A stretch of DNA of 64,000 bases from Mucilaginibacter sp. SG564 (GTDB lineage Bacteria; Bacteroidota; Bacteroidia; Sphingobacteriales; Sphingobacteriaceae), in NCBI RefSeq assembly GCF_013149275.1, contig NZ_JABGNA010000018.1:1-64000 (forward strand). Direction: 5' to 3'. The notes below the pieces were generated by a model that saw only the letters and a program-made list of their open reading frames with translations, made no database searches and had not been told where the DNA came from. Below, in pieces: positions 4,827-56,199 of the stretch (position 1 is its first letter; each line of letters starts with the position of its first letter). The translations under genes were made by a program, and so were the position numbers.

Positions 4827-4830
4827 AGAG

Positions 4831-4932
4831 CGCGTCATTGCGAGGTACGAAGCAATCTCTATGCTGTACAGAGCAGAGTATGCATGTTTGATCTGCCTAT
4901 GTAGGGATTGCTTCGTACCTCGCAATGACGCG
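4831..4932. repeat. CATTGCGAG fold-back repeat, short type (copy 2)
   Basis: The arms are nearly perfect inverted copies: CGCGTCATTGCGAGGTACGA at the left and TCGTACCTCGCAATGACGCG at the right, extending to about 28 bp. About 47 nt lie between the arms. The RNA would form a long hairpin. It is joined to the mosaic module on its left. Confidence 0.9.
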
Positions 4933-5025
4933 CGGATAAAAAAGTTGTATCATCTTCTCTAATCAGACACCCCCATACTGCGTGTGCATCAACCAATTCA
5001 CACTAAAAAAGTGTAATTTTCGCCC

Positions 5026-6390: not shown

Positions 6391-7398
6391 ATGAGTTTAG
6401 AAGGATCACGAAAAGAAGGAAAAAAATATATTAACGTTATACCAACCGACGAAGGCGGCTTTGGTAAAATACTCCCGATACTGGGCGAATACATCAATAA
6501 CAAGGCCGAGCGGATCCCCCTCAAAACGCTTGGCCCGTTTAAAACCGATACTGCCATTTACCAAAACCCACCGGCCAGCGGTTTGCGCATTACCTGGATA
6601 GGCCATACCAGCATACTGATCGAGATTGACGGCAAACGTATCCTTACCGATCCGGTTTGGGGCCAGCGTGTTTCCTTTTCCAAATACATCGGCCCTAAAC
6701 GCTTTTTTCAACCACCACTTTCATTAAGTAAATTACCCTCGCTGGATGCCGTCATCATATCTCATGATCATTATGACCATCTGGATAAGGATACTATTCA
6801 ATTTTTCGCAGAAGCTACCGTTCCCTTTTATTGCTCCATAGGCGTAGGGCAACACCTGCGTAAATGGGGCATTAATGCAGATCGCATCACCGAAATGGAT
6901 TGGGGCAATAGCGTGGTCATCGGCAACGATCTGGTGGTTACAGCTACACCAGCACGCCATTTCTCTGGCCGGGGCATTACCGGGCGTAATGAAACCCTGT
7001 GGTCATCATTCGTGATCAAAGGCCCCAAACACAATATTTATTTTGGTGCCGATTCGGGCTGGTCGCCCAGTTTCGCGGAGATCGGTGAAGCCTTTGGCCC
7101 GTTTGACTTAACCATACTGGAAATTGGCGCTTATGGCAAATACTGGCCCGATATACACATGGGCCCCGATCATGCCTCCAACGCGCACCTGGCCCTCAAA
7201 GGCAAACTGATGATGCCCGTACATTATGGCACCTTTAGCCTGGCCCCGCATGCCTGGTACGAACCCATTGAACGGCTAACCGACCTGGCAAAAGATAAAA
7301 ACATCAACCTGTTTGTCCCCAAACCCGGCGAACCTACGGAGGTAAAAGCCGAGTATAACTCCAACTGGTGGAAACCGTATTTGTCGCAAAGTTCATAG
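6391..7398 (+). CDS. Metallo-beta-lactamase-fold hydrolase (UlaG / NAPE-PLD-like)
   Basis: A 335-aa metal-dependent hydrolase. The start WIGHTSILIEIDGKRILTDP and the metal motif SHDHYDHLD (HxHxDH) are typical of the UlaG/NAPE-PLD branch. Further ligands are likely in TPARHFSGRG, YFGADSGWS and MPVHYGTF. There is no obvious signal peptide. Family members act on lactones, phosphodiesters or N-acyl phospholipids, so the substrate here is open. A hairpin terminator follows at 7466-7507. Confidence 0.88.
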   Translation: MSLEGSRKEGKKYINVIPTDEGGFGKILPILGEYINNKAERIPLKTLGPFKTDTAIYQNPPASGLRITWIGHTSILIEIDGKRILTDPVWGQRVSFSKYIGPKRFFQPPLSLSKLPSLDAVIISHDHYDHLDKDTIQFFAEATVPFYCSIGVGQHLRKWGINADRITEMDWGNSVVIGNDLVVTATPARHFSGRGITGRNETLWSSFVIKGPKHNIYFGADSGWSPSFAEIGEAFGPFDLTILEIGAYGKYWPDIHMGPDHASNAHLALKGKLMMPVHYGTFSLAPHAWYEPIERLTDLAKDKNINLFVPKPGEPTEVKAEYNSNWWKPYLSQSS

Positions 7399-7465
7399 TG
7401 ATAGATCATGGGCATGGCAAAAAGATTGTCATCCTCTGCATAATTTTTCGTATATTTATACACGC

Positions 7466-7507
7466 AACAGCCCGGGCTTCTCTAAACCAGAAAACCGGGC
7501 TGTTTTG
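7466..7507 (+). terminator. Intrinsic terminator after the MBL-fold gene
   Basis: The stem AACAGCCCGG (7466-7475) pairs perfectly with CCGGGCTGTT (7495-7504) across a 19-nt loop, and TTG follows in a T-rich stretch. Confidence 0.8.
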
Positions 7508-7526
7508 TTAAAGAACCACAAGGCAC

Positions 7527-7720
7527 AAAAACCGACCGTTTGGTATGTCGCCACTTGAGCATCAATAAATTAATACTTTTTAAACCTTTCAAAACCCGTC
7601 AAAAATTTGTTAAAAAGTGTTAAAATGGCGTTAAAGTTTAGTTAAAATGAGCAAAAGCCACTCCATTTCACCCTGTTTTTGGCTAAAAAAGTGTTAAAAT
7701 TTGAGGTTTAAAAAGTTTTT
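7527..7720 (+). repeat. AT-rich leader element, copy 1 (upstream of the RDD gene)
   Basis: A roughly 190-bp element whose ends recur, reverse-complemented, at 32600-32790. The left end reads ACCGACCGTTTGGTATGTCG. Then comes ATCAATAAATTAATACTTTT. The right end is AAAAAGTGTTAAAATTTGAG followed by GTTTAAAAAGTTTT. An inner inverted pair (TACTTTTTAAACCT at 7574-7587 against AGGTTTAAAAAGTTT at about 7705-7719) could close a large stem. GTTAAA words begin at 7609, 7619, 7630 and 7641, close to one helical turn apart. It ends 72 nt before the RDD start. Confidence 0.75.
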
Positions 7721-7792: not shown

Positions 7793-8404
7793 ATGAATCA
7801 AAATTATATCTTGGTAATTGAAGGTAAACCACAAGGCCCTTTTAGCATTGAGGAGTTAAAAAACCGTAAACTAAAGCCCGGCGATTTTGTAAAAACCCCT
7901 GAAATGGATGATTATAAAGAGGCGCAGGAAATTGCCGAGCTGCGTGCACTTTTCGGTTTTGCCAAACCGCCGATGCTTATGCAATATTATGGCAGTTTTG
8001 ATCAGCGCCTGCTGGCCTCGGTGCTGGATTGGTTTATGCTTTTCGCGGTATTTGTGATTATTGCCTTTGTGGTGGTACTGCTGTTTATACAGGATAAAGA
8101 AACACGTATTATGGTGTCCTTCGGTATTTTGGGCGTTATCCCGCTGGCTAAAATTATCTATCACATTGTGATGGAAAGCTCGGTTAAACAAGCTACCTAC
8201 GGCAAACAGATGCTCAAAATCAAGGTAGTAGATATGAACGGCGATCGCATCAGTACAGGCAAAGCCATTAGCCGCAACTTGCTCAAGCTGCTTTCTGCCC
8301 TGCCCTTTTGTTTGGGTTATGTAATAGCCTTCTTTAACAAAAAACAACAATGCCTGCATGATATGCTAGCCAATACCCTGGTGATCAAAGAAAGGTTATT
8401 TTAA
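7793..8404 (+). CDS. GYF_2 + RDD domain membrane protein
   Basis: A 203-aa protein. Residues 1-60 match the GYF_2 pattern (GKPQGPFSIEELKNRKLKPG), thought to bind peptides. Residues about 65-200 form an RDD domain with three hydrophobic segments (about 78-102, 110-125 and 163-182). The domain opens with the characteristic QRLLASVLDW region and has a late NKKQQCLHDMLANTLVI. RDD proteins are inner-membrane proteins of mostly unknown role; some are linked to ion transport. The AT-rich leader element lies directly upstream. Confidence 0.85.
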   Translation: MNQNYILVIEGKPQGPFSIEELKNRKLKPGDFVKTPEMDDYKEAQEIAELRALFGFAKPPMLMQYYGSFDQRLLASVLDWFMLFAVFVIIAFVVVLLFIQDKETRIMVSFGILGVIPLAKIIYHIVMESSVKQATYGKQMLKIKVVDMNGDRISTGKAISRNLLKLLSALPFCLGYVIAFFNKKQQCLHDMLANTLVIKERLF

Positions 8405-24983: not shown

Positions 24984-25196
24984 TCTCCTTTGGTTTGTTT
25001 TACTCCCCGAAAAGGAATGCAAATATAAGACGATTTTTTAACTCTCAAAAAGAATTTTAAAAAAGTATTTTTCATTGCCTCTTAATGCCCAAAACAGGCC
25101 AAAAAAGTGTTAATCCCATGCTTTTGGTTTTAACATCATAATACTTTTACTAATTTCGGGCTGCATTCAACCTTTTTTCTATCGTAAAATTCAGAC

Positions 25197-28100
25197 ATGG
25201 ACTACAAAAAAATCAATAATATATTTGGCTGGGTAGCCTTTATCATTGCTTCGCTAACTTATATTTTAACTTTAGAGCCCTCCTCCAGTTTTTGGGATTG
25301 CGGCGAGTTTGTTGCCTGTATTTACCGTTTACAAGTGGCCCACCAACCCGGTGCGCCCCTGTTTACGATGATAGGAAAGGTTTTCACCTTACTTTCTATG
25401 GGTGATAGCACCAAAGTGGCTTACTGGGCCAATATGGCTTCGGCGCTGGCCAGTGGGGCAACTATCATGTTCCTGTTTTGGACGGTTACCGCCCTGGCCA
25501 AAAAGCTATTGGTTAAAAAGACCGAAGACATCACTATTGCAAACCTGATACTGATCATAGGAGCCGGCTTAGTTGGCGCCCTGGCATATGCCTGGTCTGA
25601 TACTTTCTGGTTCTCGGCTGTGGAGTCCGAGGTTTACGCGCAATCATCTTTATGTACAGCCATTGTATTCTGGGCCATATTAAAATGGGATGCCCATGCC
25701 GATGAGCAGCATGCCGATAAATGGATCGTATTTATTGCCTATGTCATGGGCTTATCTATAGGTATTCACCTATTAAACCTGCTGGTAATACCAGCTATAG
25801 CATTGGTTATCTACTTCCGCAGAGCAAAAAATATCACTTCCAAAGGTACTTTCTGGGCATTTTTTGCCGGTATAGTGGCTGTGGCCTTTGTACTTTGGGG
25901 GGTTATTCAATATACCGTAAAGGGCGCGGCTTTTTCCGACCTGCTTTTTGTGAATACTTTGGGTATGGGCTTTGGCAGCGGCGCTGTAGTGTTCTTTCTT
26001 TTGCTGATAGCCACTATTGTTGCTGGGATCTATTATACCATTAAACCACAAAAACCGGCTATCATTATGGCTGCGGTATGCTTTATATTGGTACTGGGCA
26101 TCAGCGCCGGGATTGTAGGCATCATAGTTGGCGCGGTAGTACTTGCCCTGTTGGAGTACGTAGTGAAGATCCGCGAAAAACGCTTTGCTCTGAATACTTT
26201 TTTAATTTGCCTCCTGTTTATCCTGTTTGGATACAGCTCATTTGTGATGATTGTAGTAAGGGCCAAGGCAAACCCTAACCTAAACAACAGCGACCCTGAA
26301 AACGCTTTCGCGCTTAACGGCTATCTGAACCGCGACCAATACGGCGATACGCCACTACTTTATGGCCAGTTTTTTGATTCAACCCCAACCGAGCAAACCG
26401 AAGGTGCTACTATTTACCGTCGCGGCGAAACCAAATATGAGGTAGCCGGTAAAAAACTGACCACTGTGTATGACCGCAATACGCCCTTCCCCCGTATGTT
26501 CAGCGATAAGGCCGGTCATCCGGATTTTTACCGGGCATGGAGTAAACTGGGTCAAAGCGAACATCCAACCTTTGCCACCAACCTGGGCTTTTTTGGCACC
26601 TGGCAGGTGAACCAGATGTACACCCGCTATTTTCTGTGGAATTTTGTTGGTCGTGCCAATGATCTTGACGGCCAAACCGGCGCCATTGATGGCAAGGGCG
26701 GTGTAGACGGTTCCTGGTTAAGCGGCTGGGATTTCAGCAAACCCCTGCCCTACGCTGTTACCGAAAGCAAAAGCTACAACCGCCTGTTCTTTTTACCGCT
26801 GATCATCGGTCTGATAGGCCTGTTCTTCCATTTTTGGCGCGATCAGCGAAATGCGGGCGTTGTGTTGGTGCTGTTCTTTTTTACAGGTTTGGCTATTGTA
26901 TTATACTTAAATCAGGACCCTTTACAGCCACGTGAGCGTGATTATGCTTATGCAGGTTCATTTTATGCCTTTGCCATTTGGATTGGCTTAGGTGTGCTGG
27001 CTATTGCCGATTTTCTGTCGAAAAAGATCAATGCCAAAACAAGCGCTATCATAGCAACACTAATTTGCCTATTGGCTGCACCGGTATTAATGGCCAACCA
27101 GGAATGGGACGATCATGACCGTTCCACCAAGCTTACGCCGCATGATATGGCGTACAATTACCTGAATTCCTGCGCGCCTAACGCTATTTTATTTACCTAT
27201 GGCGATAATGATACTTACCCGCTTTGGTATATACAGGAGGTGGAAAATGTGCGCCCGGATGTACGCATCGTGAACCTGAGCTTGCTGGGTACCGACTGGT
27301 ACATCCGCGGTATGAAAAATAAGATGAATGAGTCGGAACCGCTGCCTATCACTATGCCGAACGACAAGTTTAAACCAGGTGTACGTGATGTTATTTATTT
27401 TAACGATCAAAAACTAACCGGCGCTACTGAGCTCAAAGAGGTTTTTGATTTTATGACCTCTGATGATAAATCAACCATGGTAGAGTACAATAATGGCGAT
27501 GTATCCAATTATCTCCCTACTAAAAACTTTAAGCTGACTATCGACCCTAACCAGGTAGTGCAAACCGGTACTGTTCCGGCTGCAGAAAAAGATAAGATAG
27601 TACCCGAAATGGACTGGACCTTTAGTGGCCGCTATGTAACCAAAGATGTTTTGGCAATGATGGACATTCTATCGCATAATAACTGGAAACGGCCCATCTA
27701 TTTCTCGGTAACCGTGCCTAATGATAACATGATAGGCCTGGACAAGTACCTGTACAACGAGGGCTTCGCTTATCGCCTGATGCCTTTGAAACCTGATACA
27801 GCATCATCAAACTCGCTCGAAAATAGCAATACCCCGGTGATGTATCATAACATGATGACCAAGTTTAAATGGGGCAATATGAAAAACGCCCGTTACCTTG
27901 ATCATGAGTCCATGACCATGTTTTATCCGTTGATCACCAGGCTTTATTCCAATTTAGCAGACAACCTGATGAAAGAAGGCTATAACGACCTTGCCAAAAA
28001 CGCGCTGAAAAAATACGACGAAGTAATGCCGGGCATCATCAACTCCACCGAGGTTGCCGTACGTAAATTTTATATGATCGAAAGCTCCTACCGTATGGGT

Positions 28101-28349
28101 GATATTGCGCTGGCTAACAAACTGGCTAACCAGGTTGATGATTATGTAAACAACTCGCTTACCTATAATTACGCCTTGCTGCAACGTAATGAAACCAGCC
28201 TGGACAACCGCGACATACAATACTCCATACAGATTTTAAGCGGACTGGTAGGTTTCACCAAAGATTTTAAACAAACCGAACTAAACACCAAATTCAGCGC
28301 GCAGCTCAAAGGCTTTGAAGCCAAATTTGGCGTTACTCCTAAACAGTAA
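25197..28349 (+). CDS. DUF2723 polytopic membrane protein, probable glycosyltransferase
   Basis: A 1050-aa protein. The N-terminal DUF2723 region (about 1-370) has many membrane helices and the acidic motif SSSFWDCGEFVACIYRLQVA with HQPGAPLFTMIGKVF. This resembles the first extracytoplasmic loop of GT-C enzymes such as protein O-mannosyltransferases. More helices lie at about 520-640, and a soluble C-terminal half of about 400 residues follows, with the motif LFTYGDNDTYPLWYIQEVE. It probably transfers sugars from a lipid carrier; the acceptor is unknown. A 31-bp inverted repeat starts in its stop codon. Confidence 0.88.
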   Translation: MDYKKINNIFGWVAFIIASLTYILTLEPSSSFWDCGEFVACIYRLQVAHQPGAPLFTMIGKVFTLLSMGDSTKVAYWANMASALASGATIMFLFWTVTALAKKLLVKKTEDITIANLILIIGAGLVGALAYAWSDTFWFSAVESEVYAQSSLCTAIVFWAILKWDAHADEQHADKWIVFIAYVMGLSIGIHLLNLLVIPAIALVIYFRRAKNITSKGTFWAFFAGIVAVAFVLWGVIQYTVKGAAFSDLLFVNTLGMGFGSGAVVFFLLLIATIVAGIYYTIKPQKPAIIMAAVCFILVLGISAGIVGIIVGAVVLALLEYVVKIREKRFALNTFLICLLFILFGYSSFVMIVVRAKANPNLNNSDPENAFALNGYLNRDQYGDTPLLYGQFFDSTPTEQTEGATIYRRGETKYEVAGKKLTTVYDRNTPFPRMFSDKAGHPDFYRAWSKLGQSEHPTFATNLGFFGTWQVNQMYTRYFLWNFVGRANDLDGQTGAIDGKGGVDGSWLSGWDFSKPLPYAVTESKSYNRLFFLPLIIGLIGLFFHFWRDQRNAGVVLVLFFFTGLAIVLYLNQDPLQPRERDYAYAGSFYAFAIWIGLGVLAIADFLSKKINAKTSAIIATLICLLAAPVLMANQEWDDHDRSTKLTPHDMAYNYLNSCAPNAILFTYGDNDTYPLWYIQEVENVRPDVRIVNLSLLGTDWYIRGMKNKMNESEPLPITMPNDKFKPGVRDVIYFNDQKLTGATELKEVFDFMTSDDKSTMVEYNNGDVSNYLPTKNFKLTIDPNQVVQTGTVPAAEKDKIVPEMDWTFSGRYVTKDVLAMMDILSHNNWKRPIYFSVTVPNDNMIGLDKYLYNEGFAYRLMPLKPDTASSNSLENSNTPVMYHNMMTKFKWGNMKNARYLDHESMTMFYPLITRLYSNLADNLMKEGYNDLAKNALKKYDEVMPGIINSTEVAVRKFYMIESSYRMGDIALANKLANQVDDYVNNSLTYNYALLQRNETSLDNRDIQYSIQILSGLVGFTKDFKQTELNTKFSAQLKGFEAKFGVTPKQ

Positions 28350-28466
28350 AAGTGGGTTTACATGGGTTTACACTTTTTATGGTTAAAATCGAATTATATA
28401 GTTGAAAATCAATTTATTACATGTTTTTAATTGGCAAAAAGTGTAAACCCATGTAAACCCACTTTT
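28348..28466. repeat. Perfect 31-bp inverted repeat at the DUF2723 stop codon
   Basis: The left arm (28348-28378) reads AAAAGTGGGTTTACATGGGT then TTACACTTTTT. The right arm (28436-28466) is its exact reverse complement, and the loop is 57 nt. Each arm also contains a direct repeat of the TGGGTTTACA type. The left arm uses the last two bases of the stop codon. Confidence 0.95.
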
Positions 28467-32599: not shown

Positions 32600-32790
32600 A
32601 AAACTTTTTAAACCTCAAATTTTAACACTTTTATGTTCAAAAACGGGCTAAAAACATTCAGAAATTCATCAAAAAACATCGGTTTTAACGATTTTAACAA
32701 ATTGCAACACCGTTTTGAGCAGTTTTGAAAATTTTAAAAAGTATTGATTTATTGATAGGTAAATAGCGACATACCAAACGCTCGGTTTTT
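32600..32790 (-). repeat. AT-rich leader element, copy 2 (upstream of GH43)
   Basis: Read on the minus strand it starts AACCGAGCGTTTGGTATGTC, continues ATCAATAAATCAATACTTTT, and ends AAAAGTGTTAAAATTTGAGG then TTTAAAAAGTTTT. It shares both ends with copy 1 at 7527-7720, while the middle has diverged. It ends 30 nt upstream of the GH43 start codon, in the same orientation to the gene as copy 1. Confidence 0.75.
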
Positions 32791-32854
32791 TTCAGACTGT
32801 TTTATTTCTGTGTGGATGCCTTAGAAAGGAGGATATAACGCGCTCTTCCCCTGC

Positions 32855-32997
32855 ACGTCATTGCGAGGAGGAACGACGTGGACAACCGACTGAAAGGAGC
32901 TCATTAATCCCGATAAAAACAATAACACATTAATAATCCCCGATATGTGGAGCGTCTTTGTAAGTCGGGGATTGCCACGCTACGCTCGCAATGACGT
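32855..32997. repeat. CATTGCGAG fold-back repeat, long type (copy 3)
   Basis: The left arm ACGTCATTGCGAGGAGGAAC carries the GGAGGAACGACGTGG variant. The right arm, GCCACGCTACGCTCGCAATG then ACGT, carries the AGCGTAGCGTGG variant. The middle contains ACAACCGAC, GGAGCTCATTAAT and ACATTAATAATCCCCGATA, shared with copies 1 and 5. A small imperfect hairpin (CCCGTTGCCTGAAGT and ACTTCGGACAGCGGG) and a half repeat at 33078-33102 complete this 554-bp gene-free gap. Confidence 0.85.
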
Positions 32998-33123
32998 TAT
33001 TTTTTATTTCCCCCGTTGCCTGAAGTCTCTGACTTCGGACAGCGGGGCTCTATTTCACAATCGCAAAGTTTAATAATAGATGCTTCGTTCCTCAGCATGA
33101 CAAAATTGAAGAAAAGTAGCTCA

Positions 33124-41278: not shown

Positions 41279-41371
41279 CGCGTCATTGCGAGGAGGAACG
41301 ACGTGGCAATCCCCGATAGGCAGATCCGCTCTGTAAGTAGGGGATTGCCACGCTGCGCTCGCAATGACGCG
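41279..41371. repeat. CATTGCGAG fold-back repeat, short type (copy 4)
   Basis: Ends CGCGTCATTGCGAGGAGGAA and GCGCTCGCAATGACGCG. The arms differ inside (GGAGGAACGACGTGG against GCGCAGCGTGG when aligned) but agree again at GTGGCAATCCCC. Beyond it, to 41534, lies GC-rich sequence with CCGCCGTAGGGCGG and no gene. Confidence 0.85.
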
Positions 41372-55977: not shown

Positions 55978-56041
55978 TTGAAGCTTTGTTAAGCAATAGC
56001 ATGATGCAGAGCCTACTCACCAGTCTACACTTTTTAATACA

Positions 56042-56181
56042 CGCGTCATTGCGAGGTACGAAGACAACCGACCGGAGGGAGTTCATTAATACCAATAAAA
56101 ACAAACACAACATTGATAATCCCCGATAAGCAGAGTCACCCTGTAAAGCATAGAGATTGCTTCGTACCTCGCAATGACGCG
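56042..56181. repeat. CATTGCGAG fold-back repeat, long type (copy 5)
   Basis: Ends CGCGTCATTGCGAGGTACGA and TTCGTACCTCGCAATGACGC. The interior has ACAACCGAC, GGAGTTCATTAAT and AACATTGATAATCCCCGATA, in the same orientation as copy 3. It is followed directly by a mosaic module. Confidence 0.85.
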
Positions 56182-56199
56182 CGGAGAAAATTCACTCTA

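Follow-up and report, generated by a model that had tools for sequence, protein, structure and literature searches.

A dispersed intergenic element family of one Mucilaginibacter clade with a helically phased, predicted bent core

RESULTS

Two related intergenic elements in a 64-kb window

The window analysed here is a stretch of 64 kb (G000:C18:1-64000) from a Mucilaginibacter genome of 6.83 Mb, referred to as G000. It holds two similar elements, one on the plus strand between the genes for a metallo-beta-lactamase fold protein and a GYF_2 and RDD protein, the other on the minus strand upstream of a GH43 gene (Table 1). The likeness first noticed between positions 7527-7720 (+) and 32600-32790 (-) was borne out, the two sequences being 80% identical over 100 nt and 87% over 54 nt; AGTGTTAAAATTTGAGGTTT occurs twice exactly in the window, with no occurrence expected. 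The upstream boundary proposed at 7527 did not hold, since the plus-strand copy extends through a hairpin and a predicted -7 box, its -33 box lying about 28 nt behind the stop codon of the Lactamase_B_2 gene. Neither family hairpin nor promoter was found upstream of the copy at 32600. Likewise, GTTTGGTATGTCG, originally taken for a conserved end block, sits in the linker, where orthologues differ from one another in an alignment of four species at the RDD locus.

Other interspersed repeat families, GTCATTGCGAGG...CGAAGCAATCTC and AATCCCCGATA..., are scattered between the genes of the window, frequently in inverted pairs. In addition, a perfect 31-nt inverted repeat, AAAAGTGGGTTTACATGGGTTTACACTTTTT, with arms 57 nt apart (28348-28466), directly follows the gene at 25197-28349.

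Table 1. Positions of the two element copies and neighbouring features in the window
Feature	Position	Strand	Remarks
Lactamase_B_2 gene (metallo-beta-lactamase fold), upstream of copy 1	6391-7398	+	Pfam, ORF list; context
Predicted promoter, copy 1	7426-7458	+	-33 TTG at 7426-7428; -7 box TATATTTA at 7451-7458, preceded by TTTCG
Hairpin AACAGCCCGG...CCGGGCTGTT, copy 1	7466-7504	+	Terminator-like; tail TTTTGTT at 7503-7509; near predicted transcript 5' end
Linker, copy 1	7510-7574	+	Contains GTTTGGTATGTCG and a weak dyad ahead of the core; four-species alignment, family consensus
Core, copy 1	7575-7719	+	ACTTTTTAAA...TTTAAAAAGTTTT; quasi-palindromic, with A/T-runs in 10.75-bp phase; strong curvature predicted
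GYF_2 and RDD protein gene, downstream of copy 1	7793-8404	+	Pfam; context, outside the element
Core, copy 2	32600-32742	-	Upstream of GH43 gene 32569-30812 (-); pattern match
Linker remnant, copy 2	32743-32800	-	Upstream neighbour is another repeat family
Other repeat families	4830-4945, 1915-2049, 32877-33008, 41302-41369, 56029-56190

Family size and distribution

Used as a query against G000, the first copy found dozens of places. A pattern for the 3' end, allowing up to 3 mismatches, gave 92 matches in G000, 89 in G082, 100 in G086 and 106 in G156, as against 0-2 in the remaining 146 of the 150 genus genomes sampled; the reversed pattern, used as a control, gave 0-1 per genome. The pair originally described thus belongs to a set of about 90 copies in G000 by pattern search, and a two-copy element private to the window was rejected, copy number being about 90-100 per genome in these four sampled Mucilaginibacter genomes. 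In public genomes, the matches listed for the exact 3' end include M. lappiensis ATCC BAA-1855 and Mucilaginibacter sp. OK268. The following analyses rest on 77 copies collected from G000 and on 86 loci of M. lappiensis/OK268 taken from among the matches listed.

Diverged copies are few and come from four further species. The promoter-hairpin pattern found at least nine in G061, four in G116 and three in G098, and the inverted-end pattern at least nine in G061, four in G149, three in G116 and two in G098, these numbers being lower bounds because the copies were located by patterns. A promoter-hairpin match in G077 was discarded as chance, the family architecture being absent. Outside the genus, one strict pattern detected no member in about 290 sampled relatives from the other genera of the taxonomic family, and literature searches returned no description of such an element in Mucilaginibacter.

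Promoter, hairpin and linker

A full copy measures about 295 bp and comprises, in this order, a predicted promoter, a hairpin, a variable linker and a core of about 139 bp. The predicted promoter is of Bacteroidetes, sigma-A type, TTG-N20-TATATTTR: in a hairpin-anchored logo of 53 copies, T, A, T and T of the -7 box are invariant, while the -33 element, 20 nt ahead of it, shows TT at 68-72% and G at 49%. At the RDD locus, the -7 box is kept in the orthologues of G082, G086 and G156. It fits the consensus TAnnTTTG reported for sigma-A promoters of one flavobacterium (PMC9723704).

Transcription is predicted to start about 5 nt ahead of the hairpin, AACAGCCCGG-loop-CCGGGCTGTT. Among 112 copies the outer stem is nearly invariant, and stem positions 6-13 are 80-97% Watson-Crick with GC, TA, CG and AT pair types, which is clear covariation. 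The covariation proposed as a check of the original prediction is thus present, albeit in a hairpin lying outside the element as first delimited. The hairpin tail holds 5.3 T per 8 nt on the plus strand versus 4.1 on the minus strand; on the former it usually reads TTTnGTTA, and the hairpin therefore resembles a terminator in the plus direction. A known Rfam family was rejected: at the gathering score the window yields a tRNA only and L077 yields no match. A promoter-like TAnnTTTG between core and start codon was also set aside (10 of 41 versus 6.5% in shuffles); its distance is not fixed.

A core phased at 10.75 bp

The core measures 137-140 bp in 69 of the 76 measurable G000 copies and 128-130 bp in the other seven, and 138-140 bp in 80 of 81 copies sampled from M. 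lappiensis/OK268; the one value of 149 bp reflects an extra TTTAAAAAG, i.e. an extended end. These steps of one turn agree with helical selection. Alternatively, slippage between neighbouring GTTAAAA units could produce them, and their value as proof of helical selection is weakened by the occurrence of short copies where GTTAAAA or TTTTT units repeat.

Phasing was computed on runs of at least four A or T without a TA step. The core runs give a sharp spectral peak at 10.75 bp, with a power of 6.0 in G000, 7.4 in M. lappiensis/OK268 and 6.0 in 20 diverged copies from G061, G098, G116 and G149, which are still phased, compared with about 0.4 in shuffles (about 15-fold). An A-run periodicity of about 11 bp is a general bacterial feature; phasing as strong as in the two copies is seen nowhere else in the window. 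Indeed, the strongest phased 139-bp stretch of the 64 kb is 7563-7701 (power 7.47; window mean 0.27, sd 0.38) and the second is the core of copy 2 (5.53), followed by a value of 2.53. Amplitude and phase are continuous across the centre (core positions 46-93). Curvature predicted with a dinucleotide wedge model and provisional wedge parameters gives contour/end-to-end ratios of 1.9-2.05 for cores versus 1.06 for shuffles. The core ends are inverted (ACTTTTTAAA/TTTAAAAAGT), the inversion being confined to the core and not spanning the whole element. The inner inverted ends and the GTTAAA words one helical turn apart, both pointed out beforehand, are real and form part of a 139-bp array with a 10.75-bp period. 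A division of cores into A and B subtypes by simple motif rules was dropped as too leaky.

The third strongest 10.75-bp phasing in the window (power 2.5) is found at 25057-25195, just upstream of the ATG at 25197. This segment contains AAAAAAGTGTTAA, lacks the element ends and is possibly a degenerate core.

Placement relative to genes

All 77 G000 copies are intergenic according to a simple gene caller. Relative to the element, the strands of the upstream and downstream genes are ++ in 36 cases, +- in 16, -+ in 15 and -- in nine in G000, and ++ in 36, +- in 15, -- in 11 and -+ in 10 in the M. lappiensis/OK268 sample. The original prediction presupposed that further copies would not be randomly oriented relative to genes, and this is what we found: in tandem pairs, co-directional copies outnumber opposed ones by 36 to 9 in G000 (p = 6.6e-5) and by 36 to 11 in M. 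lappiensis/OK268 (p = 3.5e-4), two p-values that are not independent because the species share ancestry. The stop codon of a co-directional upstream gene often lies just ahead of the -33 box. The downstream gene is convergent in 26 of the 77 G000 copies. In 23 of these 26 its stop falls within -2 to 29 nt of the core end, and in 25 of 26 in M. lappiensis/OK268 within -20 to 25 nt of it. Genes downstream of the elements include those for RDD, GH43, ffh, a class II tRNA synthetase (ThrS-like), a T9SS plug protein and a CofH/MqnC-like protein, among others. The 47 same-strand downstream proteins of G000 have no Pfam family in common, and a regulon of downstream genes was rejected on this ground.

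Conservation across species

In the diverged species the architecture is intact and the core sequence largely different. Eleven of 17 distinct diverged copies, including four of four in G116, occupy loci orthologous to those of sampled G000 or M. lappiensis copies (L222 and L228 at the locus of L058; L237 and L248, L090; L252 and L235, L069; L233, L083; L255, L065; L265, L084; L262 and L242, L129). At the ffh locus, the element is present in seven of the eight genomes nearest by Ffh identity, its hairpin falling between -357 and -372 and its phased core around -245 to -125 in all seven species, and the cores of G098, G116 and G061 are nearly unrelated in sequence; the family hairpin is absent there from G149 and the other 22 genomes examined. 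The RDD locus carries the element in G000, G082, G086 and G156, and G149, which lacks it at both loci, and G061 have short intergenic gaps. Element-free relatives have short intergenic regions at the two loci, too diverged for placing insertion points.

Orthologous cores are scarcely more alike than paralogues (median 0.83 versus 0.78), core ends and internal words being alike within species and different between them. This pattern suggests that cores evolve in concert, as by gene conversion, or together with a protein that binds them. At some shared loci the core is built differently in G000 and in M. lappiensis/OK268 (L092 versus L172/L181, L041 versus L134, L081 versus L166), as if replaced by gene conversion or re-insertion.

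About 14 G000 copies are devoid of the promoter-hairpin half, in some cases through clean loss; L034 compared with L125 is a clean deletion of promoter and hairpin. Such core-only copies represent losses, because nearly all M. lappiensis/OK268 orthologues tested keep both parts. An independent smaller mobile form was rejected on account of these full-length orthologues, the exception being L071/L174.

Two further observations concern the surroundings of these loci. At the RDD locus, L205 (G156) and L204 (G086) have an insert of about 205 bp, partly repeat-like, between the upstream gene and the element. Upstream of ffh in three species outside the carrier clade, L301 (G020), L305 (G157) and L306 (G113) are phased AT arrays of power 5.5-6.9 without family hairpin or promoter; they may be unrelated or a diverged form of the element.

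DISCUSSION

We consider it somewhat probable (roughly 0.6) that these copies form an ancient family of composite elements, fixed in position between the genes of one Mucilaginibacter clade, with a core acting as bent or wrapped DNA. That the core works at the level of DNA is suggested by its phase being kept while its sequence is not. Of the interpretation first offered, the data support a dispersed repeat with inverted ends and a helically phased array of multiple sites, but not a leader that brings regulation with it as a general role. Positions are mostly shared between species, and the copies do not appear to have been mobile recently.

The family is of a known broad kind of interspersed repeat (ERIC/Correia/BIME-like), its unusual feature being a predicted bent-DNA core conserved as a pattern. 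With ERIC, Correia (CREE) and prokaryotic MITEs it shares a length of 100-300 bp, tens to hundreds of copies, intergenic location, an imperfect palindrome and inverted ends, and with Correia elements also an internal promoter; the protein-bending IHF site of the latter may be likened to the predicted bent core. As far as known, the sequences are unrelated, and the present family differs by its 139-bp core phased at 10.75 bp, by fixation of copies at orthologous loci between species and by a separate covarying hairpin behind its own predicted promoter. The BIME/REP elements of enterobacteria, which are bound by gyrase in E. coli (PMC6379681), are likewise intergenic with a hairpin-forming part. 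In contrast to their alternating REPs, the family has a single hairpin and a predicted bent-DNA core, and no RAYT-type transposase gene adjoins a G000 copy. Phased A-tract clusters, for which a role in nucleoid compaction has been proposed (PMC3940949), have A-runs phased at 10-11 bp, whereas the family is a discrete, bounded and repeated module with fixed ends and an associated promoter-hairpin.

The resemblance to strong gyrase sites, i.e. the Mu SGS and the E. coli motif, lies in a length of about 130-140 bp, a 10.75-bp periodicity and a rough two-fold symmetry (PMC6379681, PMC12393610). The E. coli motif spans about 130 bp with 10.75-bp periodic arms and an aperiodic centre of about 36 bp (PMC6379681). 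The core agrees with it in length and periodic arms but is periodic through the centre; it is moreover linked to a predicted promoter and hairpin. Since the centre of the gyrase motif is aperiodic and that of the core phased, a protein-wrapped or bent segment is proposed for which both gyrase and a nucleoid protein are candidate partners.

Alternatively, the family may be a MITE-like mobile repeat of ERIC/Correia type without cellular role, intergenic since other insertions are harmful and now decaying in place. Prokaryotic MITEs are typically intergenic and many contain promoters (PMC10969869). The inverted ends, the roughly 100 intergenic copies with an internal predicted promoter, the failure to detect the family in most of the genus and the G000 copies stripped of their promoter-hairpin half would all be consistent with this explanation, which we nevertheless regard as unlikely. 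Terminal inverted repeats, a criterion for MITEs, are present, at the ends of the core and not of the whole element. On the other hand, loci are shared across species where the remaining intergenic DNA hardly aligns, and phasing, promoter and hairpin pairing are retained while sequence is lost. Moreover, neither target duplication nor active copy nor autonomous partner was found, the partner search covering Y1 transposases of G000. Within 1.5 kb of the single IS200-like Y1_Tnp gene of this genome there is neither a family hairpin nor a core end, and mobilisation by RAYT is therefore unsupported.

It is less plausible still that the element is a cis-acting 5' leader or upstream activating region, whose promoter or curved DNA drives the downstream gene. 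The co-directional bias and start codons, which are frequently located 70-150 nt past the core, would favour such a role, and phased A-runs upstream of promoters stimulate transcription. However, about one third of the copies face a convergent downstream gene, at whose stop the core usually ends, and the genes downstream differ in function, so that a gene-specific leader fits poorly; the same two features distinguish the family from structured leaders and riboswitches, for which a position always upstream of, and co-directional with, genes of related functions would be expected. The hairpin with its T-rich tail, furthermore, separates promoter from gene. That the copies are some 100 small-RNA genes, producing a hairpin RNA of about 50 nt or an RNA of about 250 nt acting in trans, with the core as terminator or DNA context, is very improbable: the predicted start just ahead of the covarying hairpin and the folding of the whole copy, which is better than that of shuffles (z = -2.9), would suit this idea, but an Rfam match at the gathering threshold is absent, the linker differs between orthologues, core-only copies persist in G000 and the core conserves helical phase, which is a property of DNA.

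If the family is indeed an ancient composite element acting through its core, the latter would function as DNA rather than RNA and, with a predicted contour/end-to-end ratio of about 2, would be intrinsically bent. DNA gyrase or a nucleoid-associated protein may wrap it, and the wrapped core might determine supercoiling locally, or the folding of the chromosome, in the space between transcription units. The hairpin probably terminates both co-directional transcription and a short RNA from the element's own promoter, which would keep the wrapped segment free from read-through. The family probably goes back to a small mobile repeat that multiplied in an ancestor and was afterwards retained.

Transcription pushes supercoils into intergenic gaps. 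The elements lie in gaps receiving such supercoils, and a topological role would therefore make the simplest sense of their placement. It is tempting, if distinctly tentative, to regard the element as a topological or boundary module, in which a promoter-terminator pair is joined to a 13-turn wrapping site at about 100 fixed places near gene ends. Such a module would be selected on helical phase and not on sequence, and gyrase or a Bacteroidota nucleoid protein could use it to take up supercoils from transcription or to fold the chromosome. Each genome offers about 100 natural copies, which occupy matching positions in several species and are missing from some places, and the bend phase is apparently conserved across them without sequence. 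The family thereby makes an old question, the role of curved DNA in bacterial chromosomes, directly testable.
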